Source of the DNA: Abyssibacter sp.
Lineage (GTDB): Bacteria; Pseudomonadota; Gammaproteobacteria; Nevskiales; OUC007
Assembly (NCBI GenBank): GCA_023146115.1
Contig: JAGLCS010000006.1
Span: 1 to 37,643 of the forward strand
DNA length: 37,643 nt
Direction: 5' to 3'
Program-made: the position numbers and the translations under genes
Notes under the pieces: generated by a model
What the model saw: the letters and a program-made list of their open reading frames with translations, nothing else
Told to the model about the DNA's origin: nothing
Databases searched by the model: none
Shown: positions 3,481 through 28,209 of the stretch, one piece after another
Layout of the letters: every line of letters starts with the position of its first letter
Position numbering within the stretch: the first letter of the stretch is position 1

Positions 3481-3630
3481 CAAGTCGCAATCCCTCCCGG
3501 AAATGGGTTCGTGGCGGTGCACCGCCGCTGCCAGGCGTTAGCTTACCGTCCTTTGGGCGACGAGCGGCCACGCTGTCTCGGCTCGGCGGCCCCGAAGCGG
3601 TTGCGCGAACGCGCGGTACGCGCTGCTTGC

Positions 3631-3666
3631 CCCCTCATCCTGACCTTCTCCCCGAGGGGAGAAGGG
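3631..3666. repeat. REP-like palindrome (copy 4)
   Basis: CCCCTCATCCTGA head (3631-3643), then arms CCTTCTCCCC (3644-3653) and GGGGAGAAGG (3656-3665). Same family and orientation as copy 3. Confidence 0.65.
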
Positions 3667-3700
3667 ATACCCCGGATCACCGCCGCGGCACCCCGACGAA

Positions 3701-3745
3701 CCCTGGTCCCTTCTCCCGCCTGCGAGAGAGGGCGGAGGGTGAGGG
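3701..3745. repeat. REP-like palindrome (copy 5, imperfect stem)
   Basis: CCCTGGTCCC lead, left arm TTCTCCCGC (3711-3719), right arm GCGAGAGAGGG (3722-3732), tail CGGAGGGTGAGGG (3733-3745). Stem has mismatches. The tail is identical to that of copy 6. Confidence 0.6.
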
Positions 3746-3781
3746 CCAACATGGGGCAACCCCTCCCAGTGGGCCACTCAC

Positions 3782-4003
3782 CTACGCAGCGCGTGTGACC
3801 TTCGCAGCGACTGCATCTGAAAGCGTCACCGGTGAAAAGAATTCCTCGGGGTACAGATAGTCTTCTCCCGATTCATCGATCACGCGGAGGTGCCCCATAT
3901 TCGCGGCCGCCGGATCTTCAACAACCTGGTACAGCTTGCGCGGCTCGAGCGACGCTTCATAGCCCACATTGCTGGTGCAGATTACGAACGTATGGTTTGA
4001 CAT
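3782..4003 (-). CDS. Small conserved protein of unknown function (73 aa), second of a pair
   Basis: 73 residues, acidic in the middle, no signal peptide or membrane segment. Readable blocks: HTFVICTSNVGYEASLEPRK, LYQVVEDPAAANMGHLRVID and ESGEDYLYPEEFFSPVTL. From memory this matches a small family of proteobacterial hypothetical proteins often found next to a second small protein, as here; that match needs a search. Starts at ATG 4003, four bases after the stop of the upstream partner, so the two are almost certainly co-transcribed and perhaps interact. The pair could be a toxin-antitoxin-like module, but no toxin fold was recognised. Confidence 0.75.
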   Translation of the reverse strand: MSNHTFVICTSNVGYEASLEPRKLYQVVEDPAAANMGHLRVIDESGEDYLYPEEFFSPVTLSDAVAAKVTRAA

Positions 4004-4438: not shown

Positions 4439-6232
4439 TTACGCCGACGCCCCGCCCTCGGACTCGGCCGCGGCCTCGCGTTCCAGCCACGCGGTGAGCT
4501 CGCGCTCGGCGTGCTCGCGGGAACGGTCGACGACGTTGTCGAACACGTCCCAGTCGAACATGCCGATACCGCTCACGGGCATGCGCAGGTACAGATCGGT
4601 GCGCTCGGCGCGGGCGTTGAGCTCCTCGCGGGTCGAAAGCGTGGCGGTGCGGTAGAGCACGCGGAAGATGTTGACGCCCTCGCCCAGCGCGTTCCCGGCG
4701 CCTTCCTCGCTGGCGGCGCCGAAGCGTTCGTCGGCGGACACGTCCGACGCCACCACCGGGCCGCGATCGAGGTCGGCCAGCACATTGGAGGGCACCGGCG
4801 TCAGCACGCCACCATCCACCAGCACGTCGCCGTTGTAGATGACGGGCGGCGCGACGCCGGGTACCGACATGCTGGCCACCAGCCAGTGCGCCAGCAGGCC
4901 GCGATCGTGGATCTCGGCGCGGGCGCGGGAGAGGTTGGTGGTGGTGCAGGCGAAGTAGCCACGCATTTCCTCGATGCGGGTCTTCCCGAACACCGACTCC
5001 AGGTACTGGCGGGCGCGGCGGGCACGGATCAGGGAGATGCGCGGAAGCGTGAAGTCGTTGAGCAGGTTGCGCGCCACGAACATGTCGTTGAGCACGGTGC
5101 GGGTCTGGGCGGCATCGCGACCGGACGCTGCCAGCGCGCCGACCAGTGCGCCCATGCTGGTGCCGACCACGAGGTCGGCGTGCAGATCGAGCTTCTCCAT
5201 CGCCTGCAGAAGGCCGAGGTGCGCGAATCCGCGGGCGCCGCCCCCGCCCAGCGCGATGCCGAGCGCCCGGCCCGTGAGCAGGCGCACCATGCGGTCGAAG
5301 CCTTCCCGCTCGCCGACGCGCACGCGGTGATGCATGCGCGCCCCCAGCAGCTGACGCCAGGCGAGCGGATCGCTGGCCCCGGAGCCGACGATGACGACTT
5401 CGGGCTCGGCCTTGCCCTTGAGGTCGGTCAGCTGCCGCGTCAGCGGTGAATCGGTGACCGCGAAGCCCGACGAGGCGACCACCACGATGCGATCCGCCTG
5501 GCGCAGGCTGCGCGCGCACCAGGGGTCGTCGGTCCGGCGCGCCATGTAGACCACGAAGCGGTAGTCGCGCTCCAGCGCTTCCAGTATCTCGACGCTCTCG
5601 GGCGCGCTGAGGTCGCGTCCGTCGTCTCGCGGCGTGGCCGGGCCGTCGATGATCTTGCCGTCGACGCGCACGACGCTGCCGCGCGCGGCCAGCGACTTGA
5701 GCAGCGCATCGGCGACCACCTCCACCGGCGCCCCGTCGTGCGCCGGCACCACCGCCAGCGTCCGCGCGCTGCGGCGCTGGTCACCGGTGCGCGGGCGCGG
5801 GGCGTACAGCACGTTGCGCAGCCACTGGCGCACGGCTTCGCGCCCGAAGGTGGGGTGCCGATAGAGCAGCCGCTCGACGGCGGATTCCGGCAGGCGCACG
5901 ACCTCGGAATCGCGCACCGCGCGCAGGGTGGCCCGGTGCGACTTGCCCGCCATCAGCGACAGACCGCCCATGGTCTCGCCGGCGCGCAGCTCGCGAAGGA
6001 CGGTCATCTTGCCGTCGATGCGCTGCTCGGCGCGCATGCGGCCATGCGCGACCAGATAGAGCGCGTCCGACGGCGTGTCCTGCTCGTAGAGGACCTCGCC
6101 GCCGGCGACGCGCTCCAGCGTGCACTCGCGCGCCAGCCGCGCGATGCCGACGCGACCGAGGCTGCCGAATACCGGGGAATCGCGCAGCGCCTGGGCGACG
6201 CGCTCTCCGGTCGAGGACGCGGTGTCCGACAC
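4439..6232 (-). CDS. Patatin-like phospholipase with N-terminal cyclic-nucleotide-binding domain (NTE/RssA-like)
   Basis: 597 residues in two parts. Residues about 15-130 form a cNMP-binding/Crp-type beta barrel (LERVAGGEVLYEQDTPSDAL ... GETMGGLSLMAGKSHRATLR). Residues 325-500 form a patatin serine hydrolase with an oxyanion loop GGGGARG (329-335), nucleophile elbow GTSMG (Ser359) and catalytic DGG (Asp473); the Ser-Asp dyad is intact. The middle (about 155-300) resembles the linker of bacterial neuropathy-target-esterase homologues. Predicted lysophospholipase or phospholipase A acting at the inner membrane, perhaps gated by nucleotide; no membrane helix is evident. Start is GTG 6232, the first possible start after an in-frame stop at 6245-6247, with a weak ribosome binding site. 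It lies 32 bases downstream of fba, so read-through from fba is likely. Confidence 0.88.
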   Translation of the reverse strand: MSDTASSTGERVAQALRDSPVFGSLGRVGIARLARECTLERVAGGEVLYEQDTPSDALYLVAHGRMRAEQRIDGKMTVLRELRAGETMGGLSLMAGKSHRATLRAVRDSEVVRLPESAVERLLYRHPTFGREAVRQWLRNVLYAPRPRTGDQRRSARTLAVVPAHDGAPVEVVADALLKSLAARGSVVRVDGKIIDGPATPRDDGRDLSAPESVEILEALERDYRFVVYMARRTDDPWCARSLRQADRIVVVASSGFAVTDSPLTRQLTDLKGKAEPEVVIVGSGASDPLAWRQLLGARMHHRVRVGEREGFDRMVRLLTGRALGIALGGGGARGFAHLGLLQAMEKLDLHADLVVGTSMGALVGALAASGRDAAQTRTVLNDMFVARNLLNDFTLPRISLIRARRARQYLESVFGKTRIEEMRGYFACTTTNLSRARAEIHDRGLLAHWLVASMSVPGVAPPVIYNGDVLVDGGVLTPVPSNVLADLDRGPVVASDVSADERFGAASEEGAGNALGEGVNIFRVLYRTATLSTREELNARAERTDLYLRMPVSGIGMFDWDVFDNVVDRSREHAERELTAWLEREAAAESEGGASA

Positions 6233-6264: not shown

Positions 6265-7284
6265 TCAGGCCGCTTCCTCCATGGCCTCGCTGTAGCGGCC
6301 GGTGGCGGCCAGGCCGTTGAGCTTGGCGCGATGGAAGTAGGCCTTCTGGGCGCTCTCCACATTCGCGGTGCTGCCGCCCCAGGCCTTGAGCGCCGGCGCC
6401 TGCAGGGCGCGGCCGTAGCTGAAGGTGAGCGACCACGGCGAGGCGTCGTGCTTGTTCATGGCGTCCAGGTGCTGGGTCGCCAGCTCGTCCGACTGTCCGC
6501 CCGACAGGAAGGCGATGCCCGGCACCGCGCTCGGCACGCAGCGCTTCAGGGTGCGCAGGGTGGCAGCGGCCACAGTCTGCACATCGGCCTGCTGCGGACA
6601 CTTCTTGCCGGCGATGACCATGTTGGGCTTGAGCACCATGCCCTCCAGCAGCACGCGCTGACGGCGCAGGGCGTCGAAGGTGGCGTTGAGGACGTCGGTG
6701 GTCACGCGCTCGCACACCTCGATGGTGTTGTCGCCGTCCATCAGCACCTCGGGCTCGACGATCGGCGTGATGTTGGCTTCCTGGCACAGCGCGGCGTAGC
6801 GCGCCAGCGCGTGGGCGTTGACGTCGATGGCGTAGTCGCTGGGCAGGCCGTCGGCGATGGTGATCACCGCGCGCCACTTGGCGAAGCGAGCACCGGCCTC
6901 GCGGTACTTCTCGAGGCGCTCGCGCAGGCCGTCCAGGCCCTCGGTCACGGTCTCGCCCGGCGCGCCGGCGAGGTCCTTGGCACCCTTGTCGACCTTGATA
7001 CCGGGGATGATGTCGCGCGCGGCCAGCAGCTTGGAGAAGGGCGTGCCGTCGGCGCTGGCCTGGAACAGGGTCTCCTCGAAGAGGATGACGCCGCTGATGT
7101 AATCCTCCGCGCCCGGCGTGGTGAACAGCAGGTCGCGGTAGGCGCGGCGGTTCTCTTCGGTGCTCTCCACCGAAATCGAATCGAAGCGCTTCTTGATCGT
7201 GCCGGTGGATTCGTCGGCAGCCAGAATGCCCCGGCCCGGGGCCACCATCTTGCGCGCGGTCTCCGCTAGCGTCTTCTCGTCCAT
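6265..7284 (-). CDS. fba: Class I fructose-bisphosphate aldolase
   Basis: Cleaves fructose 1,6-bisphosphate to dihydroxyacetone phosphate and glyceraldehyde 3-phosphate through a Schiff base; glycolysis and gluconeogenesis, cytosol. 339 residues. Family blocks are intact: GRGILAADESTGTIKKRF (18-35), GIKVDKG (95-101), FAKWRAV with Lys136, the Schiff-base lysine in MVLKPNM (Lys219), and FLSGGQSDE near the C-terminus. This is the eukaryote-like class I enzyme, not the zinc class II form. Start at ATG 7284: GGGAGAAG sits about eight bases upstream, and a longer frame from 7329 adds 15 residues not typical of the family. Confidence 0.95.
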   Translation of the reverse strand: MDEKTLAETARKMVAPGRGILAADESTGTIKKRFDSISVESTEENRRAYRDLLFTTPGAEDYISGVILFEETLFQASADGTPFSKLLAARDIIPGIKVDKGAKDLAGAPGETVTEGLDGLRERLEKYREAGARFAKWRAVITIADGLPSDYAIDVNAHALARYAALCQEANITPIVEPEVLMDGDNTIEVCERVTTDVLNATFDALRRQRVLLEGMVLKPNMVIAGKKCPQQADVQTVAAATLRTLKRCVPSAVPGIAFLSGGQSDELATQHLDAMNKHDASPWSLTFSYGRALQAPALKAWGGSTANVESAQKAYFHRAKLNGLAATGRYSEAMEEAA

Positions 7285-7586: not shown

Positions 7587-8039
7587 CTAAGTCAAGGCGG
7601 CTTGCAACGATGGGGGCCAGGGTTGCTGGAAGGGATTCACCACGCTCACCCCGTGCCAGACGAAACCGGCCTGCAAGTCCTCGCTCAGCAGATAGCGACA
7701 ACCGGCTTGCCCCGCAACCGACAGAATCAGCGCATCCCGGATCTGAAGGCCATGCGATACCGCGCAGTCCATCGCCGAGGAGAAGGCCGCAGCGTTGGAA
7801 TCGATTACCGCAAAAGCGTCCGACCACTCCATGACAGCAGCGCGAGTCTCGGTTGGCGGGCGCCCTTGCTTGCCGTTCAGGACGCGATACAGCTCGCCCA
7901 GCACCTGAGCGGGCAACATGATCTCGCAGCCGCGCAGGGCACCGACCAAGTGGCGGGCGCTCGCGCAGCGGGCATCGTCGCCGCCCCCTTCGGCGTAGAC
8001 GAGCACATTCGTGTCCAACGCCACCCGGATTTCAGTCAT
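7587..8039 (-). CDS. vapC: VapC-type PIN-domain ribonuclease toxin
   Basis: 150 residues, normal for a VapC. The PIN-domain acidic residues are visible: Asp9 (VALDTNVL), Glu49 (QVLGELYRVL), Asp102 (GLQIRDALIL) and Asp121 (LLSEDLQ), which bind Mg2+/Mn2+ in the family. Predicted to cut a specific RNA, often tRNA or rRNA, when released from its antitoxin. Start at ATG 8039 overlaps the antitoxin stop by eight bases, a standard arrangement for translational coupling; an alternative start 12 bases upstream (8051) is possible. The long C-terminal Pro-rich tail after residue 135 is slightly unusual. The real RNA target cannot be read from sequence. Confidence 0.88.
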   Translation of the reverse strand: MTEIRVALDTNVLVYAEGGGDDARCASARHLVGALRGCEIMLPAQVLGELYRVLNGKQGRPPTETRAAVMEWSDAFAVIDSNAAAFSSAMDCAVSHGLQIRDALILSVAGQAGCRYLLSEDLQAGFVWHGVSVVNPFQQPWPPSLQAALT

Positions 8040-8268
8040 AGAGCTCGTCACGCGTCCAGTCGCGCCGGCCCGTCACCGGTTGACGCTGCAATCGCCCCAG
8101 CAGCGCCTCACGGGCACCTTCACGCCCGCGCCTCGCGGTCGCGCTAACCGGCTCCACAACCGCAACCGCGCGACCACGAGAAAGAATGGTGACCGAATCT
8201 CCCTGCTGCACGGCGCGCAGCAGCGCCGAGAAACGGCGGTTGGCCTCTGAAGCGCTGATGGTGTCCAT
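8032..8268 (-). CDS. vapB: Phd/YefM-family antitoxin (VapB partner)
   Basis: 78 residues. The N-terminus MDTISASEANRRFSALLRAV followed by GDSVTILSRGRAVAVVEP is the Phd/YefM DNA-binding fold; the C-terminus (RRDWTRDELYD) is the part expected to fold on the toxin. Start chosen at ATG 8268, where the family begins; a longer frame to 8313 adds a non-conserved stretch. It precedes and overlaps vapC, so the pair is one operon. A palindrome just upstream (8277-8295) could be its own operator. Confidence 0.88.
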   Translation of the reverse strand: MDTISASEANRRFSALLRAVQQGDSVTILSRGRAVAVVEPVSATARRGREGAREALLGRLQRQPVTGRRDWTRDELYD

Positions 8269-8276
8269 CGCGGCAT

Positions 8277-8295
8277 AGTAGTGTTTATAACTACT
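8277..8295 (-). promoter_or_regulatory. Candidate vapBC operator/promoter palindrome
   Basis: AGTAGT (8277-8282) is inverted as ACTACT (8290-8295) around an AT-rich centre, nine bases before the vapB start. On the coding strand a TTGCGC-like -35 and a TACTAT -10, 18 bases apart, overlap it. Phd/YefM antitoxins usually repress their own promoter at such palindromes. The box assignments are by eye. Confidence 0.4.
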
Positions 8296-8685
8296 TAAGC
8301 GCAAGCAACGCACCAGACGATTCGGTAACAGCGTGCTGCTTCTCGAAATGCCGGCGCCGAGATGGCTGGCACTACAAAGGAACCAAATCTACTGTTCTCA
8401 TGCCCGAGCCTCCCTTCTCCCCGCCGGGGAGAAGGGCCGGGGATGAGGGGGACGCGCGCAGCGCAACCGCATGAAGCTCGTGCCCGGGCGAGCGCTGAAT
8501 CCAGCGGAACCACCTGTCACCAGCCACCGGCCACCGCTCCCGAATCCGAAGCCGATGTGCGAAAGGTCACGGAGCCCCCTGCAAGGGGATGAGCCCATCC
8601 CTGAATCACAGGTACAGTAGCCATGTCGCGCCGCAACATTCGCGCGCACGCGCTCCAGCCTTAATAAACCGGTTCCTACTGTCCG
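8296..8685. other. Divergent intergenic region between vapBC and manC
   Basis: About 390 bases without a supported gene. Holds one REP-like palindrome (8402-8452). The manC promoter should lie between this element and 8685, but no convincing -35/-10 pair and no JUMPstart/ops element (GGCGGTAG) was found. Confidence 0.45.
8402..8452. repeat. REP-like palindrome (copy 7, last one before the polysaccharide locus)
   Basis: Arms CCCTTCTCCCC (8412-8422) and GGGGAGAAGGG (8426-8436), tail CCGGGGATGAGGGGG (8437-8451). Opposite orientation to copies 3 and 4. Confidence 0.7.
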
Positions 8686-10135: not shown

Positions 10136-11419
10136 GTGCCGGAATCGCGTTCTCTCCGCATCCTTTTTGTCAGCCTCAACTTCTCGCCGGAAGAAACCGC
10201 GACTGGCAAGTACACCGGAGAGTTGGCGCAGTGGCTCGCGGCACGCGGACACGCGGTCGATGCGATTGCAGGCCTACCCCATTATCCCGAATGGCGGGTC
10301 CAGCCCGGCTACGCGGGGAAAGGCCTCTGGAAGGAATCACTCGATGGCGTGACCGTCCTCAGGACACCGCATCCCGTGCCCGCCAGTGGAAGCGTCTCCG
10401 CAAAGAAGCGCATCCTCATGGAGCTCGGATTCTCCTTTGCATCGCTGTACTGGTGGTCGCGCATCGTCTTTTCCCGCCGGCGCTACAACCTGGTTATCGC
10501 GATCTGCCCGCCGTTGCAGACAGCCGTGATGCCGGCCATTTATGGCGCGCTTCGCGGAGTGCCCTGGGTTCTGCACGTTCAGGACTTCCAGGTCGACGCA
10601 GCACTGCGCCTCGGAATGCTGAAGATGGGCAAGCTCGATCGCTTGCTCTTTGGTCTGGAGAACCTGTTTCTCAGGCGTGCGACCCGGGTTTCATCGATCA
10701 CACCTTCCATGTGCCGGCGAGCCGCGGAGAAGGGCGCCAGCGTTGACCGCACTTGGCTAACCCCCAACTGGGCCGACATCACGCAGATCACCCCCGGGGA
10801 CCACGACAACGGCTTCCGCAGGGAGCTTGGTGTGGGTAACGACGGCATCCTCGTGATGTACGCCGGCGCCATTGCCACCAAGCAAGGGCTCGATGTCCTG
10901 CTCGAAGCAGCCCATGCCATGAAAGATGACGACAGGTTCCACTTCGTGATCGTGGGCAACGGCTCCGACCGCGAACGGTTGGAATCACGGGCTGCGGAAC
11001 TGGGCCTACCGCGGCTCCGCTTTCTGGATCTGCAACCGCGCGCCCGCTTGAACGAAATGCTGGGAGCAGCCGATATCCATCTCGTCATCCAGAAACGCGA
11101 AGCGGCGGATCTGGTCATGCCCTCGAAGCTGACCAATATTCTAGCGGCCGGCCGCCCGGCCATCGCCACGGCAGATCAGGGCACAGCCCTGTGGGACGCC
11201 CTTGAAGACGGCGGCTGCGGCGTTTGCGTGCCTCCCGGAGACAGCGCCGCACTCGCCGAAGCACTAAGCAAACTGGGGAACGATGCTGACACGCGCGATG
11301 CGAAGGGCCTGAAGGCCCGACGATATGCAGAGGAAAACCTGGACCAGGACGCAATCCTGCATGCCTTCGAGCAGAAGCTCTTCACGTTGGTAGGCCCGAA
11401 ATCGAACACAAATGCCTGA
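10136..11419 (+). CDS. GT4-type glycosyltransferase, WcaI-like
   Basis: 427 residues with a GT-B fold pattern. The N-terminus (LRILFVSLNFSPEETATGKY, then LAARGHAVDAIAGLPHYPEW) is characteristic of the WcaI family of colanic-acid glycosyltransferases. The C-terminal half has a donor-site region (VMYAGAIATKQGLDVLLEAA ... VMPSKLTNILAAGRPAIATA) and ends RRYAEENLDQDAI...LVG. Expected to add a sugar, possibly from GDP-fucose or GDP-mannose, on the cytoplasmic face of the membrane. Start chosen at GTG 10136, with AGGAAC at 10121-10126; a longer frame from ATG 10082 would overlap manC by 41 bases. Donor and acceptor are not readable. Confidence 0.85.
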   Translation: MPESRSLRILFVSLNFSPEETATGKYTGELAQWLAARGHAVDAIAGLPHYPEWRVQPGYAGKGLWKESLDGVTVLRTPHPVPASGSVSAKKRILMELGFSFASLYWWSRIVFSRRRYNLVIAICPPLQTAVMPAIYGALRGVPWVLHVQDFQVDAALRLGMLKMGKLDRLLFGLENLFLRRATRVSSITPSMCRRAAEKGASVDRTWLTPNWADITQITPGDHDNGFRRELGVGNDGILVMYAGAIATKQGLDVLLEAAHAMKDDDRFHFVIVGNGSDRERLESRAAELGLPRLRFLDLQPRARLNEMLGAADIHLVIQKREAADLVMPSKLTNILAAGRPAIATADQGTALWDALEDGGCGVCVPPGDSAALAEALSKLGNDADTRDAKGLKARRYAEENLDQDAILHAFEQKLFTLVGPKSNTNA

Positions 11420-11518: not shown

Positions 11519-12022
11519 TCAAAGCTGATCCCCCCAATCGACGCGATTGAGGACATACTCGCGGACGCGTCCATAGTCCGCCTGCATCTGCTTACTGAAG
11601 TGACAAGCGCGCTTCAGTACCAACGCCAGATCGGCCGCGTCCTTGATGTACTCATGTACGAGGCGGTTCCGGATCCGCCGCATTGCAAGCCAATCATCAG
11701 CGGCGTCGACGAGCCCGAGGCGCTCCAACCGATCGAGATTATCGGCCGCTGCAGCCGGTAGCTCCCCCACGAGCCGAAGCACCACCGGTGCGAGCTTGTC
11801 CATTACCGTGTCCTGCATACGGCTGAATTTCGCTCCAAACGACTCCAGGCGATCAATTCCCAGATCATCGGACAACAACGACTTGGCGCGCGCCTCATCA
11901 ACCTCGCAGTGGTCGCCGAGCAACCGACTCCGCACACCCGAGAGCTGCGTTGCTTCCCGATCCACGAGATCGACGAGATACCGTATCCGGCGGGACGGCT
12001 CTTCAATCAACCCCTCGCTCAC
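11519..12022 (-). CDS. hepT: HEPN-domain toxin (HepT-like)
   Basis: 167 residues, all helical in appearance. The HEPN catalytic motif RX4H is present as RNRLVHEY (Arg118, His123), with Tyr125 fitting the RX4HXY form of HepT, whose tyrosine is modified by the partner nucleotidyltransferase in characterised pairs. Predicted metal-independent RNase or tRNA-targeting toxin of a type VII system. Start is GTG 12022, sharing GTGA with the antitoxin stop, so translation is coupled. Flanked with its partner by a direct repeat, which suggests the two genes arrived as a unit. Confidence 0.88.
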   Translation of the reverse strand: MSEGLIEEPSRRIRYLVDLVDREATQLSGVRSRLLGDHCEVDEARAKSLLSDDLGIDRLESFGAKFSRMQDTVMDKLAPVVLRLVGELPAAAADNLDRLERLGLVDAADDWLAMRRIRNRLVHEYIKDAADLALVLKRACHFSKQMQADYGRVREYVLNRVDWGDQL

Positions 12023-12318
12023 AACACCACGCCCTGTTCGTGTGCTTGCTCATCGATCGAACGCGGGTTGGCACCCTTACGGTGCACAACGACGTCAATC
12101 CGCCTGTCGCCCAATCGGCGCTGCAACCGTGCGTTCAGCTCAAGCTCCTTGTCGAATACAACCTCGGGCGTCCCGAATGCCTCGATGTGCAAATCGATAT
12201 CCCCGCCCCGCAGCGTGTCATCAACCCGTGAACCGAACAGGCGCACGGTCGCCTCGGGGCCGAAGATGCTGCGGACCTCGTCGACAATAGCGCGGTGTTG
12301 TTCAGCGGTAAGGCGCAT
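12019..12318 (-). CDS. mntA: MNT-domain nucleotidyltransferase antitoxin (MntA-like)
   Basis: 99 residues. The minimal nucleotidyltransferase signature is visible: LFGSRVDDTLRGGDIDLHIE, that is GS (29-30) followed by DID (Asp40, Asp42), nine residues between rather than the commonly cited ten; a third acidic site is in RIDVVVH. Characterised MntA antitoxins neutralise HepT by adding AMP to its HEPN tyrosine. ATG 12318 is the clear start; no strong ribosome binding site was seen. The gene precedes and overlaps hepT by four bases. Confidence 0.88.
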   Translation of the reverse strand: MRLTAEQHRAIVDEVRSIFGPEATVRLFGSRVDDTLRGGDIDLHIEAFGTPEVVFDKELELNARLQRRLGDRRIDVVVHRKGANPRSIDEQAHEQGVVL

Positions 12319-13855: not shown

Positions 13856-14965
13856 TCACTCGTGGTAGTCGAAGGACTTGTAGCCCGCGCTGCGCACCAG
13901 ATCGTCCCTGCGCGCGCTGTTCAGATCCTCGCGCACCATTTCGGCAACGAGCTCTTTGAAGGTGGTCTTCGGGGTCCAGCCCAGCTTCTCGCGCGCCTTG
14001 GTCGGGTCGCCAAGCAGGGTCTCGACCTCGGCCGGCCGGAAATAGCGTGGATCCACCGCCACGACGCGGGTACCCGGCTTCACGGCGCACTCGTCGCCGG
14101 CGGAATCCAGGTAGCCAACCTCTTCCGCACCCGCGCCCTCCCAGCGCAATGTCATGCCCAGCTCACCGGCGGCTGCGTTGACGAAGTCGCGTACCGAGTA
14201 CTGGTGCCCGGTGGCAATGACGAAGTCCTCCGGCTCGTCCTGCTGCAGCATCAGCCACTGCATTTCCACGTAGTCGCGCGCATGACCCCAGTCGCGCAGC
14301 GAATCCATGTTGCCGAGGAACAGGCAATCCTGCAGCCCCAGATAGATGCGCGCCATTGCGCGCGTTATCTTGCGGGTAACGAAGGTCTCGCCGCGCAGCG
14401 GAGACTCGTGATTGAACAGGATGCCGTTGCATGCGTACATGCCGTAGGACTCGCGGTAGTTCACCGTGATCCAGTAGCCGTAGAGCTTGGCAACCGCATA
14501 GGGCGAGCGCGGATAGAACGGCGTCGTCTCCTTCTGCGGGATTTCCTGGACCTTGCCGTAAAGCTCGGACGTGGAGGCCTGGTAAACCCGCGTCTTCTTC
14601 TCCAGGCCGAGAATGCGCACCGCCTCGAGGATGCGCAGGGTGCCGAGCGCATCCGAGTTCGCGGTGTACTCCGGGCTCTCGAAGGAAACCGCCACATGGC
14701 TCTGCGCGCCGAGATTGTAGATCTCGTCGGGCTGCGCGGTCTGGATGATGCGTATCAGGTTGGTCGCATCCGTCAGGTCCCCGTAGTGCAGGATGAAGCG
14801 CAGTTCCTTCTCGTGCGGATCCTGGTAGAGATGATCGATGCGGTCGGTATTGAACAGCGAAGCCCGGCGCTTGATGCCGTGGACCTCGTAACCCTTGCCG
14901 AGCAGAAATTCGGCGAGATAGGCGCCGTCCTGTCCCGTAACGCCGGTAATCAGCGCGCGTTTCAC
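13856..14965 (-). CDS. gmd: GDP-mannose 4,6-dehydratase
   Basis: Converts GDP-mannose to GDP-4-keto-6-deoxymannose, first step to GDP-L-fucose. 369 residues, typical. Motifs: [19 protein letters not shown] (NADP Rossmann loop), [23 protein letters not shown] (Tyr-x3-Lys), [17 protein letters not shown] and [14 protein letters not shown]. Start is GTG 14965 with AGGGGA shortly upstream. Followed after two bases by fcl, so the two products act in sequence. Confidence 0.97.
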
Positions 14966-14999: not shown

Positions 15000-15947
15000 C
15001 TACCGCTGCCAGTCAGTCAGCGATGACGCGAAATCGAACCGAAAATCGAACCCCATGTCGATGAGTGTGCGGGGCACGATATGGGTGGGACGGGCCGCCT
15101 TCTTCACCCGGACCGGATGAATCGGCCCCCGCCCGCCCGTAACGATCTGCAGCACCGCAGCCGCCGGCGCCAACAGAGAGACCGGCAGCGGCAGGACCGG
15201 CGCACGACTGCCCAAATGCGCCTTCACGTGCCGCACCAGATCGCCCAGTGGTTCGGTGGGGTGCTCGACATAGTTGTAGCGGATGACCGGCTCGTTCCGC
15301 GCCATCACGATCGCGATGCTGTCGAGAAGCCCCTCGATGTAACCGTACGACTTGCTCACCATGGGTGAACCCGGATACGCCAAATAGCCCCGCTTGATGG
15401 CGCGAATCATCCGCAGGATATTGCCCGGATCGCCGGGGCCGTAGATCACGCCGGGCCTGCAGATAACAAGCCGGCGTCCCTGCTGCGTAGCCTGCCATTG
15501 CTCATGAATGAGCTCTGCAGGATATTTGGACCCTCCGTACGGAGAGACGGGGCAGATTGGCGCAGACTCGTCGGTAGCGCTCGTCGTCGGGCCGTAGACA
15601 GCGATACTGCTCGTGAAGTAGATGTTGGAACAGCCAACCGCCTCCGCGTAACGGGTCACCGTACGCGCCCCCGCAAGGTTGGTATCGAAGTACTCCGAAG
15701 CCTCGTGCCCAGGTTCTCGGTGAACCGCCGCCAGATTGAAAATCCACCCTGGCGGCTCCGGCACAAGCTGCTCCGGGATTTCATCGCGCACATCGGTGAT
15801 CGAGGTGCTGACCCCCGCCATCCCATCGAGATGAGACGGCCGGATATCGGCGAGATGCACATGATCAAAGCAGCCACTGGAAAGCAAACGCTTCGCCAGA
15901 TGCCCGCCGATGAATCCCGCGCCTCCGAAGATCACACAAGTCGACAC
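15000..15947 (-). CDS. NAD-dependent epimerase/dehydratase (extended SDR), substrate unknown
   Basis: 315 residues. Rossmann loop [15 protein letters not shown] at the N-terminus; catalytic region [11 protein letters not shown] and [12 protein letters not shown] (Tyr-x3-Lys); [13 protein letters not shown] substrate-side block. The C-terminal part ([20 protein letters not shown], then [11 protein letters not shown]) resembles nucleotide-sugar or sterol-type SDRs rather than GalE. Probably makes or finishes a nucleotide-sugar for this locus. Start is GTG 15947, with AGGAG six bases upstream. Ends 34 bases before gmd. Confidence 0.82.
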
Positions 15948-16008: not shown

Positions 16009-16625
16009 TCAACGCGATGCGCCTCCCACCAATGCTTCGGCATCCTGCTCGAAACGCGCCATGATCGCTTCCTGCGCAAGATCCGATTCCGCGTAGGAGC
16101 GGGCAGCAGCGCCCAATGCCGCGCGCCATTCAGCATCGTCGACAAGCGCGGCTATGTCCTCCGCGGGCAGGGCATCGGCCAGGCGCTGCACGCGGATGGT
16201 GGCGGTGCCGGCTTCGGCCGTGCCGGGGAACAAGGCGCTCTGCCGCGCCGCGATCGGCAGCAGGGAGGAGGAATCATCCCGCGCCGAAACATGAATCTCC
16301 GCGTCGACGGCCTGCGGCCCCACTGCTGCCTCCTCCAGCGTGGCTAGGCCATCGCTCGCGAACACCGCTCGCCACAGCGCCGCCGGCCCCGTCAGCGGCT
16401 CGAAGGAGACGATGCGCGCATCGCGGAAACAATATCGAGCCACCAGCGCGAACTGACCGCGGTTGGCGCCAATGTCCACCACCGTGCGCACCGGCCCCGG
16501 GTTGCGCATCACGCCGGCGTGCTCCACCCCGGCCGCCACCCCCTGGCGGCGCAGCGCCGTGCGCCAAGCAGGCACGGCGAGATGCCGGAGAATTTGCGAC
16601 CCTTGGTCGTCAGCGTTGCCATCAT
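16009..16625 (-). pseudogene. Broken FkbM methyltransferase fused to a glycosyltransferase tail
   Basis: The readable frame carries the first half of an FkbM-type SAM methyltransferase (LRHLAVPAWRTALRR, then TVVDIGANRGQFALVARYCF and RIVSFEPL). After the beta-strand region around 16150 the expected FkbM block (LLKIDVQGFE-like) is missing. Instead the last 46 or so residues (LVDDAEWRAALGAAARSYAE ... EAIMARFEQDAEALVGG) look like the C-terminus of a GT4 glycosyltransferase, close to the end of the WcaI-like protein at 10136-11419. A natural start, ATG 16625, shares ATGA with the upstream glycosyltransferase stop but is in another frame; a one-base loss near 16586-16595 (AAATTCTCC) would explain this. 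Likely inactive: it lacks the second half of the methyltransferase. A sequencing error could explain the frameshift but not the chimera. Confidence 0.7.
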
Positions 16626-17824
16626 GACACCGGCTCAGTGGGCGATAAATCGGGAACGATCCTGGTGCCCAGGGCCATCTCATAGGCCCGGACATGGCGC
16701 TCCGCGCAAGCCTCCAACGAGGCGTTTTCCTCGATGAATTGCCGCCCCCGGCGGCCGAGCTCGGTACGCTGCGCCGGCTCAAGAAGATGCTCCAGCGTGC
16801 ATGTGGCGATTTCTTCGGGGCCTTGGCTGTTCACCACATACCCGGTATGCCCATGCTGGACAAGTTCGGCGATCGAGCCGACGTCGAAACTCACGACCGG
16901 CAGACCGAGGGCCATCGCCTCTTCCATTGCGGTAGGAATCCCTTCCGAATTCCGGCGCGGGGTCATCCAGAAAATATCCATGGCCTGCACTAGCTCATGA
17001 ACTCGTCCCGTTGGGTCGAGCGCGATCAGATCGCGCTCCAGCTCCAAACCAAGACCGGCTGCCAAACGCCACAGACCGTCGATGTATTCGCGGTGGTTAG
17101 AGTGCATGGCGCCGAGCAACAAGAACTTGACGCCTGGCACTTGGCCTTTCAGCAAGGCTGCTGCCCGGATGAAGTTGTGGTGTCCCTTTTGCAGGTTGAT
17201 ATTGCCTACCGTGCCGACCACCAGAGAGGCATCCGAAAGCCCGAGCTTTTCCCGCACGGAAGCCTTGAGGCCGGGGTCAGGCCGAAACAGCGCCGTGTCC
17301 ACGGGCGGGTAAAAGTTGACGAGACGTTCCGACTTCCGGGGCATTCCGGGGTGTTCTTGCGCCACACGAACACCGGTACACATCACCACGTCCGCATAGC
17401 GGCGCACCAGCGGTTTCAGCGCCTTGCGCAACGCGATGGGCGTGTAGGTATCCAGAATCTGCCAGACGACCGGAATGCCCATGCCCCCCCCGGCAATGGC
17501 CCCATGAGGGTTGGCCAAGCCGTTCAACTGCACCAAATCGATCCCCAACCGCTCGATCAACCGGCGGATGTCGCGTATCTGCCTAGGAAAGCTGCCGAAG
17601 AACTGAAGGTGAGTTCGGATACCGCGAGTCGCGCGGACACGCCGCAGCGGCAGTTGCACGACATCGACGCCGGCATCGCGCAAACGCTCCGCCGCGTTGC
17701 CTGGCTCGTCGGGCAACAGCACGGTAGTCCGCACGCCCTTTTTTGCCAGAACCGGCGCAAGCCGCAGGCTGCGATTGTGCGGTCCGCCGAAAACCGGGTA
17801 GTGGATGACGCTGAGGACGTGCAT
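16622..17824 (-). CDS. GT4-family glycosyltransferase
   Basis: 400 residues, GT-B architecture. N-terminal domain begins MHVLSVIHYPVFGGPHNRSL with the Gly-rich acceptor-side loop; the C-terminal domain has VGTVGNINLQKGHHNFIRAA, the EX7E-like donor region NSEGIPTAMEEAMALGLPVV and VSFDVGSIAELVQHGHTGYV. Predicted retaining transferase adding one residue of the repeat unit at the cytoplasmic membrane face. Start at ATG 17824 overlaps the upstream SDR stop by one base; longer frames to 18139 lie inside that gene. Ends in an ATGA overlap with the broken FkbM gene. Confidence 0.88.
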   Translation of the reverse strand: MHVLSVIHYPVFGGPHNRSLRLAPVLAKKGVRTTVLLPDEPGNAAERLRDAGVDVVQLPLRRVRATRGIRTHLQFFGSFPRQIRDIRRLIERLGIDLVQLNGLANPHGAIAGGGMGIPVVWQILDTYTPIALRKALKPLVRRYADVVMCTGVRVAQEHPGMPRKSERLVNFYPPVDTALFRPDPGLKASVREKLGLSDASLVVGTVGNINLQKGHHNFIRAAALLKGQVPGVKFLLLGAMHSNHREYIDGLWRLAAGLGLELERDLIALDPTGRVHELVQAMDIFWMTPRRNSEGIPTAMEEAMALGLPVVSFDVGSIAELVQHGHTGYVVNSQGPEEIATCTLEHLLEPAQRTELGRRGRQFIEENASLEACAERHVRAYEMALGTRIVPDLSPTEPVS

Positions 17825-18786
17825 CACGAATCCGTGGTTACAGCGGTCAGCACAGACTCGTCCTGCTGCTGGAACCACTCCCAGGCCGCCGCCAGACCGT
17901 CGGCGAGCTTCCACTTCGGCCTGAAACCGAGGCGCTCCCGCGCCTTGTCGTAGGTAGCGAAGTTGCGGGCCACCTCGCCAGCTCTGGCTGGCCGGAATTC
18001 GATGGGATGGTCCGGCTTGCCCGCAATTGTCCGCAGCGTCTCGGCCAGCTCCAGCACCGTGGTCTCCTGGCCGGAGGCCAGATGGAACACCTCGCCGCCC
18101 GCCAGCTTCGCATCGAGCGCCGCGGTGATGCCGGAGCACAAATCCTCCACATGGACGTAATCCCGCGAAGCGGAGCCGTCGCCATAGATGACGATGGGTT
18201 CGCCCGTCATCAGCGCCTTCATGAAGGTCGTCGCCGCCCCTTTCTTGTGCACGCTATGGGGACCATAGACATTTCCGAAGCGCAGACAAACCGTCTCCAG
18301 GCCGTAGGCCTTGGCGAAGGCGTGGCAATAGGCTTCGCCGCACAATTTGCTGGCACCGTAGGGAGAGATGGGCTTGGGCAAGGACCGCTCATTCACTGGG
18401 GGCACGGCGTCGCCGATCAGCGCACCGCCCGTGGAAGCGAACACCAGCCGACGCACGCCGGCATCGACCGAAGCCTGCAACACATTCAAAGTCCCTTGCA
18501 CATTGACCGCGAAATTGGCGCGCGGGTCGGCGACCGATTCGACTACCGAGCCATAAGCGGCGAGATGCACGACCTGCTCCACGTCGCGAAACGCCTCGGC
18601 CAAGCCCTCAGGATTCAGGATGTCGCCCTGGTGCAATACCGCCATTTCTTCCTGACAGCCGGTCGGCGACGCCCGTCGCAGATTGTCGAGGACGGCGACG
18701 GGCCTCGACGGGGAAAGCCGTTGGACGAGGTTCATGCCGATGAAGCCGCAGCCCCCGGTAATCAGAACTCTCTTACTGGCAGACAT
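17824..18786 (-). CDS. NAD-dependent sugar-nucleotide epimerase (UDP-hexose 4-epimerase-like SDR)
   Basis: 320 residues. LITGGCGFIGMNLVQRL (NAD loop), DILNPEGLAEAFRDVEQVVH, LAAYGSVVESVADPRANFAV, FASTGGALIGDAVPP and SPYGASKLCGEAY (Tyr-x3-Lys), then RFGNVYGPHSVHKKG and GDGSASRDYVHVEDL. The last blocks are shared by UDP-glucose, UDP-GlcNAc and UDP-glucuronate 4-epimerases, so the exact sugar is open. Start at ATG 18786 with GGAGAG just upstream. Since galE is also present in this locus, this enzyme probably acts on another sugar. Confidence 0.85.
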   Translation of the reverse strand: MSASKRVLITGGCGFIGMNLVQRLSPSRPVAVLDNLRRASPTGCQEEMAVLHQGDILNPEGLAEAFRDVEQVVHLAAYGSVVESVADPRANFAVNVQGTLNVLQASVDAGVRRLVFASTGGALIGDAVPPVNERSLPKPISPYGASKLCGEAYCHAFAKAYGLETVCLRFGNVYGPHSVHKKGAATTFMKALMTGEPIVIYGDGSASRDYVHVEDLCSGITAALDAKLAGGEVFHLASGQETTVLELAETLRTIAGKPDHPIEFRPARAGEVARNFATYDKARERLGFRPKWKLADGLAAAWEWFQQQDESVLTAVTTDS

Positions 18787-23785: not shown

Positions 23786-25275
23786 GCCCTCACTCTGCGC
23801 GCCGACAGGGACTCGAACAGCCGACGGCGAACCGGGTGGTACCAAACCGATACACCAAGGACAAGGAGCGGCAACAACAGGCCGATCAGGGCCCACGTCG
23901 GCTCATCTGCCACCTTTCGCAATGGCATCAGCCAGCCAAGGACGGCCACGGTCAGAGAGGCGGCTATGAGCGGCAGGTGCCCCTCCGTGGAGCTGACGTG
24001 GCAACGTACGCGATGGCGATACCCGTATACGCCGACCAACATTGCGGAGCCTGCGATCAGGGCTATGGCGTAGCCGAATGCTACACCATGCGCACCGAAG
24101 CTTCGCCCAAGCAGCCAACCCAGGCCCGCATTGAGGGCGCCCATCAGCACGTGCGCCAGGGTGTTCCACCCCACCTGACCAGTGCCCATATTGGTGAAGT
24201 AGGCGGGCCCGGCGAAGATGTTGGCGCCCCAAGCCACGCTGAGCAGCGTGATCAGCAACACCAATTCGGGCTGGTATGCACCAGTCAGCAGCCAGGAGAA
24301 CCCGCCCGCCCAGGCGATGAGAAGCGCCAGCACGGGCAGGGTGACGAAGACCAGCAGGCGCACATTCTCTCGATAGAGACGCGTCAAACGGGCAGGCTCG
24401 GTTTCCGCCAACGCAGCCGCGTGGGGGACGATCGCTTGGTTGGCCATCACGATTACGCTGCGGGCCTTCATGACTACCTGGTTTGCCATCTCGAAATAGC
24501 CTGCTGCGGCGGGACCGCCGAAGCGAGCCATCAGCGCCTTGGCGACAGGGTCCAGCAATAGCATGAATACGGTGGCCGCCTGCACGTTGGCGCCGTACCC
24601 GAGCATTTCGCGCAGCACCGGCCTGCTCCATTGTCGAGGCAGACGCGGCAAGGCCGGCAGCGCCCGGCGCAGCGCGGCCCTGCCGCCGATCACCAGCAAC
24701 AGGCCCTGCCCAATCTGTGCCCAGGCGAGACCGAGAAGCCCGAAACGCGGCACCAGCACAATTGCTGACGCCAGCATCGCGATCTGGCCCGCGACCACCA
24801 GCCCTGCCCGCAAATCCATGCGCTGACAACCGTCCAGGCCGCCCTGAAACACCGCGGCGACGATCGTCAACCACAGGGATGCCAAGGCGTAGGGAAGGAT
24901 GTCCATTGCACCAATCAAATGTTCGGCATCGAACAGATGCGGCAGCAGCCCGGCGATGAGTGGATAAAGCAAAGGTAACGCTGCGCCAACCACAACCATC
25001 AGCGTCAACAGCGCTGTGTCGACCACCTGCCCGACCCGAATCAGGTTGCCGCGCGCGCGATCGCGCGCCACGAAACGGGTTACCCCGGCGCTCAATCCCA
25101 GGTCCGCGAGTCGGGACGCCGAAGCGGTGGCCAGCACCACCGACCAGACGCCCAACTGCTCAACGCCAAGTGTGGTATTGATGTAGCGATAGAGTCCAAA
25201 CAGCAGCGCGGCGCTGGCGAGTGCCTGAACAACATTGGCGATGGTGTTGCGCGCTAGGCGCGCTTTCTCATCCAT
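23782..25275 (-). CDS. wzx: Polysaccharide repeat-unit flippase (Wzx/MATE-like)
   Basis: 497 residues with about 12-14 hydrophobic segments. N-terminus (LARNTIANVVQALASAALLF) and the LGVEQLGVWSVVLATASASR loop fit the MOP/PST flippase family; internal ARFGGPAAAGYFEMANQVV is the typical second-half repeat. Expected to flip undecaprenyl-linked units across the inner membrane. Start taken at ATG 25275, overlapping the upstream FkbM stop by eight bases; ATG 25296 is possible and would lengthen it by seven residues. Neither has a clear ribosome binding site. Confidence 0.88.
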   Translation of the reverse strand: MDEKARLARNTIANVVQALASAALLFGLYRYINTTLGVEQLGVWSVVLATASASRLADLGLSAGVTRFVARDRARGNLIRVGQVVDTALLTLMVVVGAALPLLYPLIAGLLPHLFDAEHLIGAMDILPYALASLWLTIVAAVFQGGLDGCQRMDLRAGLVVAGQIAMLASAIVLVPRFGLLGLAWAQIGQGLLLVIGGRAALRRALPALPRLPRQWSRPVLREMLGYGANVQAATVFMLLLDPVAKALMARFGGPAAAGYFEMANQVVMKARSVIVMANQAIVPHAAALAETEPARLTRLYRENVRLLVFVTLPVLALLIAWAGGFSWLLTGAYQPELVLLITLLSVAWGANIFAGPAYFTNMGTGQVGWNTLAHVLMGALNAGLGWLLGRSFGAHGVAFGYAIALIAGSAMLVGVYGYRHRVRCHVSSTEGHLPLIAASLTVAVLGWLMPLRKVADEPTWALIGLLLPLLVLGVSVWYHPVRRRLFESLSARRVRA

Positions 25276-26047
25276 TGCCGACCAGAAATTCCTCATCAAC
25301 GAAGAACAGATCGTGCTGTGTCTGGCCCTCCCACACCACGCGGTATCCGGATTCCTTCAGTAAATGCGTGATTCGCTGGTAGTCCGTTTGCCTTGCGTTG
25401 TACTCGATGCATCCGCACACAAACCGGTGATTTCGCAGATTGCACATCTGGTCCACAATTGGCAGTTCAGCTCCTTCCACATCAATTGAGATAAAGCTAA
25501 TTAGCTCCGGCGCGCTGTTTTCTTCCAGAATCCGCCCCAACGTCGTTCCCCAAACAGTTATAGAGCTGGCGTTTTTCGTCCTCTTCTCGTGAGTCTTACC
25601 GAGCAAGCTACGCAGCCCCCCATACAACCCTGCGCTGCAAAATTCATAATACCCTTCCTGTTCCACTACAGCAGCAATTACTGCTTTCGATTTGCGTTTC
25701 TTCAGGCTATCGAGGTACTGTGGGTTCGCTTCTACAAGCAAACCATTCCACCCGAATTGCTCCTCAAGATATATCGTGTTCGACAATGTAAAACCGTCAT
25801 TCCCCCCAATTTCCACAAAAAAACCAGATCTGAACCGGTTTACTAGAAGTGCGAAGATATCTTGATTCAATTGTGTTTCATGTGGAGACTCGGGAAGTAG
25901 CAAGAACTCCCTGAGCTTAGCAGCAGGCGTCCGGACAAGGAGCCCGGGCAGCAAGCCATGATCAGCGCAGTAGGCAACAGATGGCTTGCGAAGCAGCTTT
26001 GAACCAAGCACGATCTTCTTGATCAGCGTTCTAGGGCTCATGATCAT
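25268..26047 (-). CDS. FkbM-family SAM methyltransferase
   Basis: 259 residues. SAM-binding block FFVEIGGNDGFTLSNTIYLE with GLLVEANPQYLDSL, then the FkbM hallmark LISFISIDVEGAELPIVDQM. Likely an O-methyltransferase for a sugar of the polymer. Its sequence is visibly more AT-rich (for example 25560-25870) than both flanking genes, which suggests separate and recent acquisition. ATG 26047 shares ATGA with the stop of the gene before it; its own stop lies within the start region of wzx. Confidence 0.87.
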   Translation of the reverse strand: MIMSPRTLIKKIVLGSKLLRKPSVAYCADHGLLPGLLVRTPAAKLREFLLLPESPHETQLNQDIFALLVNRFRSGFFVEIGGNDGFTLSNTIYLEEQFGWNGLLVEANPQYLDSLKKRKSKAVIAAVVEQEGYYEFCSAGLYGGLRSLLGKTHEKRTKNASSITVWGTTLGRILEENSAPELISFISIDVEGAELPIVDQMCNLRNHRFVCGCIEYNARQTDYQRITHLLKESGYRVVWEGQTQHDLFFVDEEFLVGNG

Positions 26048-26760
26048 TGCCTTACGAACACCGCGTCCAGGTACACCACACGTCCATCCTCTCCGTAGGC
26101 TTGGTCCAGGTTTCCGGCATAACGAAAACCCGATTTTTGAAGCATGCCCGCCAGGCTGAAAAAATCGGCCTGCCCTTCATACAGCGGATCGATACAAACT
26201 TCCAGTACGACCGCTTTGCACTTGTCCAGAACGCGCTCTGCCCCGCGCAGAACCCGGTCTTCGAAGCCCTGCACATCGAGCTTCAACAGAACTCTGGGAG
26301 GCAGCCGTTCCACGACGTCGGCCAGCTCTCGATCGAGCGTCGAGACTCGGACGGATACCATCCGCTCCGCGCGGGTCTGAGGGTACAACTGATGGCAGGT
26401 GTCCGTGGCGGCCAAAAGCGAAGACGAGGGCGTGTGCTGCTCATGCAGGCGCATTTCAACCTGGCCCTCCTGATCCCCCAAGGCCACCTGGAAACTATGC
26501 ACGCGGCCATCTTGCGTCCCACCCCAGGCGGAGAGCTGTTCGAACTGATCGGGCAACGGCTCGAAGCAGTAGAGTTGCGCGTGCGGAAAGAATCCACTGA
26601 TCAAGCGGGCGAACTGGCCTTGATTGGCGCCCACGTCGATGACGGCACCAATATCCAGTTCAGCCAGTCCCAGCAAGGTGCGTTTGGGTGAACGGTGAAG
26701 GCGGATAACGTCGAAACCCGCCCGGTTGACACCGCTGCGAAGCATTTTCTTTAGAGTCAT
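26044..26760 (-). CDS. FkbM-family SAM methyltransferase
   Basis: 238 residues. Motif I AVIDVGANQGQFARLISGFF, acidic loop YCFEPLPDQFEQL, and the late blocks VLLKLDVQGFEDRVLRGAER and VVLEVCIDPLYEG. Different subtype from its neighbour and closer to the broken FkbM copy at 16009-16625 (shared DIGAN/DVGAN-GQFA). Start chosen at ATG 26760 (MTLKKMLRSG), the usual length; ATG 26778 is an alternative. About 140 bases separate it from the sulfoquinovose synthase gene; that gap is open in frame but reads as non-conserved. Confidence 0.87.
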   Translation of the reverse strand: MTLKKMLRSGVNRAGFDVIRLHRSPKRTLLGLAELDIGAVIDVGANQGQFARLISGFFPHAQLYCFEPLPDQFEQLSAWGGTQDGRVHSFQVALGDQEGQVEMRLHEQHTPSSSLLAATDTCHQLYPQTRAERMVSVRVSTLDRELADVVERLPPRVLLKLDVQGFEDRVLRGAERVLDKCKAVVLEVCIDPLYEGQADFFSLAGMLQKSGFRYAGNLDQAYGEDGRVVYLDAVFVRQ

Positions 26761-26898
26761 GGTGAAACTGCGTCTCATGAAGTTGCGCCAGGACGCGGCC
26801 GGTGCGAATGCAAGCCAGACTTCCCAGACACGTCGTCTTTCAGCCGATCGGCGGTGGATGCCGCGCGCAACTGGAACCCCTGGCGGCCTTACCAAGGG

Positions 26899-28122
26899 TC
26901 ATGCACTTTGATTCGCTATGGGATTGACCGACATCGGAACCACTTCCGCTGATTGGCCGGCCTGGCGCCACAGCGATACGCACGGGATCTTTCTGCGGTC
27001 GCAGCGATCCGCATACTTGCGCGCGATGTCGGTGACCTCTTCCATCAGTCCATCGTTCAGGGTAATGGGCGTCAGGCCTAGATGCAGGAAACGATCGTTT
27101 TTCACGTGCAGGTCGTTCTCGTCGGCCTCATTGCGCGGGTTCTTGAGGTAGTCCACCTGCACGCCGGTGCGATCGGAAATCATCTTCGCCAGGTCGCGCA
27201 CGCGGTGGGTCTCTGTCATCTGGTTGAAGATGTGCACGCGGTCGCCGGGCTGGGGCGGATTCTCCAGCGCGATCTGGATGCACTTGACGGTGTCCTGGAT
27301 GTGGATGAAGGCGCGGGTCTGGCCGCCGGTGCCGTGCACGGTAAGCGGATAGCCGACGGCGGCCTGCACCAGGAAGCGGTTGAGCACGGTGCCGTAGTCG
27401 CCGTCGTAGTCGAAGCGGTTGATCAGGCGCTCGTCCTGCCGGGTTTCCGCGGTCTGGGTACCCCAGACGATGCCTTGGTGCAGGTCGGTGACGCGGACGC
27501 CGTCGTTCTTGTTGTAGAAGAAGAACAGGAGCTGGTCCTGGGTCTTGGTCATGTGGTAGATGCTGCCCGGATTGGCCGGATACAGAATCTCATTTTCGAT
27601 CTGCGTCCCATCGTCGGTCTCGACCTTGACCCGCAGGTAGCCTTCGGGGATCTTCATGCCGGCGGTGCCGTAGCCGTAGACGCCCATGGTGCCGAGATGC
27701 GCGATGTGGATATCCTGCCCGCTCTCGACCACCGCGGCCAGCAGGTTGTTGGTGGCGTTGAGATTATTGTCCACGGTGTAGCGCTTGTGGTGGCTGGACT
27801 TCATGGAGTACGGCGCGGCGCGCTGCTCGGCGAAGTGGACGACGGCGTGCGGGCGCCAGTCGTTAAGCAGGTCCAGCAGGCGCTGGTAGTTGACGGCGAC
27901 GTTGAAGTTGTGGAAGGCGATGTCATGCCCGGAGACTTCCTTCCAGGCACGCAGGCGCTCGCCCATGGGGCGGATGGGGGTGAGGGATTCGCATTCCAGC
28001 TCGATGTCGATCTTCCGGCGCGAGAGGTCGTCAACGATGGCCACGTCGTGGCCGAGCTTGGACAGGTGCAGCGCGGTGGGCCAGCCACAGAAACCGTCGC
28101 CGCCCAGAACTAGAATTTTCAT
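26899..28122 (-). CDS. sqdB: UDP-sulfoquinovose synthase (SQD1/SqdB-like)
   Basis: In known members it makes UDP-sulfoquinovose from UDP-glucose and sulfite with NAD. 407 residues, the usual bacterial/plant mature length. Diagnostic blocks: VLGGDGFCGWPTALHLSKLG at the N-terminus, HFAEQRAAPYSM, TMGVYGYGTAGMKIPEGYL, YHMTKTQDQLLFFFYNKNDG (Tyr-x3-Lys), VTDLHQGIVWGTQTAET, RFDYDGDYGTVLNRFLVQAA and VHGTGGQTRAFIHIQDTVKC. The GGDGFCGW loop and the NRFDYD/GTVLNRF region separate SQD1 from ordinary epimerases. Start at ATG 28122; the frame up to 28176 is not conserved. No sulfolipid synthase was recognised nearby, so the product more likely feeds the exopolysaccharide. A related sulfo- or unsulfonated sugar cannot be excluded. 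Confidence 0.9.
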   Translation of the reverse strand: MKILVLGGDGFCGWPTALHLSKLGHDVAIVDDLSRRKIDIELECESLTPIRPMGERLRAWKEVSGHDIAFHNFNVAVNYQRLLDLLNDWRPHAVVHFAEQRAAPYSMKSSHHKRYTVDNNLNATNNLLAAVVESGQDIHIAHLGTMGVYGYGTAGMKIPEGYLRVKVETDDGTQIENEILYPANPGSIYHMTKTQDQLLFFFYNKNDGVRVTDLHQGIVWGTQTAETRQDERLINRFDYDGDYGTVLNRFLVQAAVGYPLTVHGTGGQTRAFIHIQDTVKCIQIALENPPQPGDRVHIFNQMTETHRVRDLAKMISDRTGVQVDYLKNPRNEADENDLHVKNDRFLHLGLTPITLNDGLMEEVTDIARKYADRCDRRKIPCVSLWRQAGQSAEVVPMSVNPIANQSA

Positions 28123-28209
28123 GAGATATACACTCGCCTTTATGGATTCAGTTGCGAACGAATGATTCGTGAACACGAGCGGCGGTAATTCACCCGCCTT
28201 GTTTCAAGC

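Follow-up and report, generated by a model that had tools for sequence, protein, structure and literature searches.

A truncated FkbM methyltransferase gene joined to a WcaI-like glycosyltransferase tail in Abyssibacter sp. is very probably a pseudogene scar

The window examined here, a stretch of 37,643 nucleotides from Abyssibacter sp., carries on its minus strand a reading frame that begins as an FkbM-family methyltransferase and ends as a glycosyltransferase (GT), which raises the question of whether it encodes a fusion enzyme or preserves the remains of two genes. Our analysis favours the latter: the frame is very probably a pseudogene scar, in which a deletion joined an FkbM gene to the tail of a WcaI-like gene and a separate frameshift altered the start. 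The elements of the locus are the following.

16596..16009, minus strand: broken frame, open and ending at the stop at 16009
16582..16625, minus strand: natural FkbM start region, where the ATG and the upstream stop overlap as ATGA and the ATG is out of frame with the remainder
16150..16596, minus strand: N-terminal part of an FkbM-family methyltransferase, about 149 residues (family models, alignment)
16144..16155, minus strand: join between the FkbM part and the WcaI-like tail (alignment, family models)
16009..16150, minus strand: end of a WcaI-like GT4 glycosyltransferase, its last ~46 residues with the stop codon (NCBIfam, alignment)

Matched separately, the two halves each fit their own NCBIfam family model, in agreement with the earlier note, which had described an FkbM start that switches to a GT4 C-terminus at about 16150. 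The FkbM half matches TIGR01444 (fkbM_fam) over residues 38-146, corresponding to profile positions 1-104 of 143 (E 4.6e-11). Its match to the Pfam FkbM domain PF05050 is confined to positions 1-108 of 173 and, at 20.2 bits, falls below the cut-off of 22.7; an intact homologue matches positions 1-173, and intact homologues cover all or nearly all of the domain. The alignment retains the SAM-binding start motif (D-I-G-A-N-x-G-x-F), present as VVDIGANRGQF in the VVDIGANRGQFAL region, while the conserved LLKLDVQGFE segment (the LLK-D-V-Q-G-E segment of the full PF05050 domain) and the C-terminus are lost. The N-terminal 149 residues are 78% identical to the closest full-length family member, that of locus L045, but the window copy differs from the family in lacking the last third and in having its start out of frame. 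In the other half, residues 142-188 match the WcaI-family profile NF007640 at positions 361-406 of 411 (E 8.7e-5). This is all that remains of the glycosyltransferase: the last ~46 residues and the stop codon are kept as in the family, whereas ~370 N-terminal residues, with both GT4 Rossmann domains, are absent. FkbM similarity ends at about residue 149 (RLADALPAEDIA) and GT similarity starts at about residue 151 (LVDDAEWRAALG), which places the join near 16144-16155. The frame is continuous across this join and open through 195 codons; by chance, one join of three would be in frame.

The start of the gene carries a second defect. The ATG at 16625 is coupled to the preceding gene through the ATGA overlap, and yet, as had been proposed, it is shifted by one base against the remainder of the gene, its own frame closing after 38 codons. 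Relative to homologues, one net base is absent at the downstream end of the start region. The frameshift suggested by the earlier note at 16586-16595 is thus borne out as a base loss, slightly downstream of that position: when five homologues (G029, L045, L063, L047 and L048) are aligned with it at the DNA level, the gap falls at ~16580-16583, some 5-15 nt further on. Starts in frame, either TTG or ATG, are found in L045, L063 and L048. The intact FkbM gene of G029, however, has no in-frame ATG, GTG or TTG ahead of a GTG whose equivalent is also present in the window, where internal GTG starts lie in frame in the broken gene; judged from this comparison, the N-terminal frameshift by itself may be tolerated. 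Given that the C-terminal third is gone as well, it matters little.

Could the join and the missing base be absent from the living genome and have arisen by misassembly or the mixing of strains? The genome is a fragmented assembly of 192 contigs, and two defects in a single gene are what such an error might produce. The join nevertheless lies inside a 37.6 kb contig, the locus maps once, and the missing base is outside any homopolymer run. A misjoin would also usually leave the missing pieces on other contigs, but neither the end of FkbM nor the front of the GT gene turned up in the rest of this genome, which is 94.5% complete; the only matches to these pieces were the scar, the WcaI gene at 10136, a single distant FkbM and some distant glycosyltransferases. 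We consider an artefact improbable.

Comparison with relatives reveals a widespread FkbM-wcaI gene pair and supports the deletion. The genomes whose neighbourhoods are most similar have an unbroken FkbM gene. G029 has it ahead of a complete WcaI-like GT gene, gmd and fcl; Sinimarinibacterium flocculans (G048) has, intact and in this order, an epimerase gene, the counterpart of the upstream GT, FkbM, the WcaI-like GT, gmd and fcl. Among 80 database loci with an FkbM homologue, 78 are full-length and two are truncated where a contig ends; a complete WcaI-like GT gene stands directly 3′ of FkbM on the same strand in 21 of the 80, with a spacer that is usually within ~100 nt (median 34 nt). The intact pair that the earlier note proposed to look for in related strains is therefore present. 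A two-part structure shared by many species, the result that the earlier note had named as contrary to a scar, was looked for and is absent: none of the 80 public-genome FkbM loci encodes a fused FkbM-GT protein, and a match covering both halves occurs in no other genome, either among the 146 relatives or among the 85 genomes of the order. Across these loci and genomes, a stable two-part protein family is accordingly rejected.

These comparisons also bear on the proposal that the frame encodes a short functional fusion with a role of its own, for example as a SAM-binding regulator translated from an internal GTG. Such a protein would likewise show an open frame across the join, and past purifying selection is visible in the retained FkbM part: 3 of 49 conserved sites deviate, about the median of intact homologues, and pN/pS is 0.31 against L045 and 0.28 against L073, compared with 0.22-0.33 for close intact pairs. 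However, the product would lack the DVQGFE segment, the C-terminal third of the FkbM domain and all but the tail of the GT, the two-part structure has no homologue in the 80 loci or the 146 relatives, and the signal of constraint is accounted for by a recent break. We regard a functional fusion as very improbable. Since the retained part is as constrained as intact genes, inactivation appears, from these substitution patterns, to be young compared with the divergence among these FkbM genes; long decay of the scar is rejected, as the retained FkbM part is not eroded.

That the tail is drifted FkbM sequence or a chance match is barely credible, for although it is short (46 aa), it matches the WcaI family at the right end of the profile and is 55% identical over 56 aa to the end of the G029 WcaI-like GT (E 1.9e-8). 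Its likeness to the intact WcaI-like protein at 10136-11419 of the window, to which it had originally been compared, holds in general (22/44 identities) but is not specific, because the FkbM-adjacent GT of G029, from another lineage, and the GT of G027 are closer (26/44 and 25/44, respectively). A tail duplicated from the window's own WcaI gene is accordingly disfavoured, by a margin that is weak on so short a stretch.

The deletion scar proposed at the outset, removing the end of one gene and the front of a WcaI-type gene, is thus upheld by the intact relatives and the lack of fused homologues. The ancestor would have had an operon of a GT4 gene, an FkbM-type O-methyltransferase, a WcaI-like glycosyltransferase, gmd and fcl, in that order. 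A deletion would then have taken away the final third of FkbM together with ~370 codons from the start of the GT gene and joined the remains in frame, and a separate loss of one base near the FkbM start would have put the coupled ATG out of frame. If the genes adjoined as they do in G029 and most relatives with both, the deletion would span ~1.4-1.6 kb (~84 FkbM codons, the spacer and ~370 GT codons); it would be larger if other genes lay between FkbM and the GT, as in L045. Both this mechanism and the size are reconstructed from relatives. Any product would lack the latter half of the methyltransferase domain and almost the entire glycosyltransferase, so that neither activity is expected to persist here. 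The scar is an ordinary pseudogene, resembling the deletion-fusion pseudogenes generally known from polysaccharide clusters, in which two neighbouring operon genes are truncated and joined by one deletion, with no notable difference from them. A literature search returned nothing directly relevant to the scar.

The surrounding genes give the context in which the loss would act.

17824..18786, minus strand: NAD-dependent sugar epimerase/dehydratase, in the same order in S. flocculans
16622..18139, minus strand: intact GT4 glycosyltransferase upstream of the scar, whose orthologue precedes the intact FkbM in S. flocculans
15000..15947, minus strand: NAD-dependent epimerase/dehydratase-like gene between the scar and gmd, not at this position in G029 or G048
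13856..14965, minus strand: gmd, GDP-mannose 4,6-dehydratase, which follows wcaI in G029 and G048
10136..11419, plus strand: intact WcaI-like glycosyltransferase, 58% to the FkbM-adjacent GT of S. flocculans
25268-26047: intact FkbM-type gene of the same cluster
26044..26895, minus strand: intact FkbM-family methyltransferase, 35-37% to homologues of the broken FkbM

With gmd, fcl, a GDP-mannose hydrolase-like NUDIX gene, Wzx/Wzy-like genes (read by eye) and YjbH, the cluster looks, from sequence similarity and family models, like an exopolysaccharide locus making GDP-fucose. A change in the polymer as a result of the scar is plausible, with one methylation likely lost and one sugar linkage possibly lost; it stays an inference because the intact WcaI-like gene and both intact FkbM-type genes remain. 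Annotation should treat the frame as a pseudogene rather than as a fusion enzyme, and a polymer prediction from the cluster should leave out the broken methyltransferase; beyond annotation, the scar matters little.

Several other features of the cluster were observed. The epimerase/dehydratase-like gene at 15000-15947 has its best relative in G084 (51%), and a 40% relative in L048 lies downstream of FkbM. A UDP-sulfoquinovose synthase-like gene at 26899-28176 on the minus strand (NF041015, 345.7 bits, below the cut-off of 575) hints at a sulfonated or unusual sugar in the polymer. A HepT/MntA-like toxin-antitoxin pair with weak family matches lies between wcaI and the NUDIX gene (11519-12318, minus strand), and a PIN/Phd pair is present at 7587-8313.

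Other genomes also carry irregularities at this boundary. In G027 (L031:7300-7760), FkbM is split over two frames and cut after about residue 140, near the cut point of the window copy; next come an acyltransferase-like gene (8001-8588) and a WcaI-like GT. L045 (1011-8435) has an intact FkbM with two additional FkbM 3′ fragments behind it, at 3563-3882 (85% identical DNA) and 6756-6898 (86%); a RES-domain gene (4727-5557) separates the fragments, and a WcaI-like GT and gmd come after them. It is conceivable, though rather doubtful, that rearrangement has recurred at the FkbM-wcaI boundary within this group of polysaccharide clusters and that the window, G027 and L045 reflect repeated switching of polymer methylation. 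There are hints that the FkbM gene has been broken repeatedly in this group. An FkbM homologue of UBA5338 (L047:7962-8660) carries an in-frame stop near its N-terminus.
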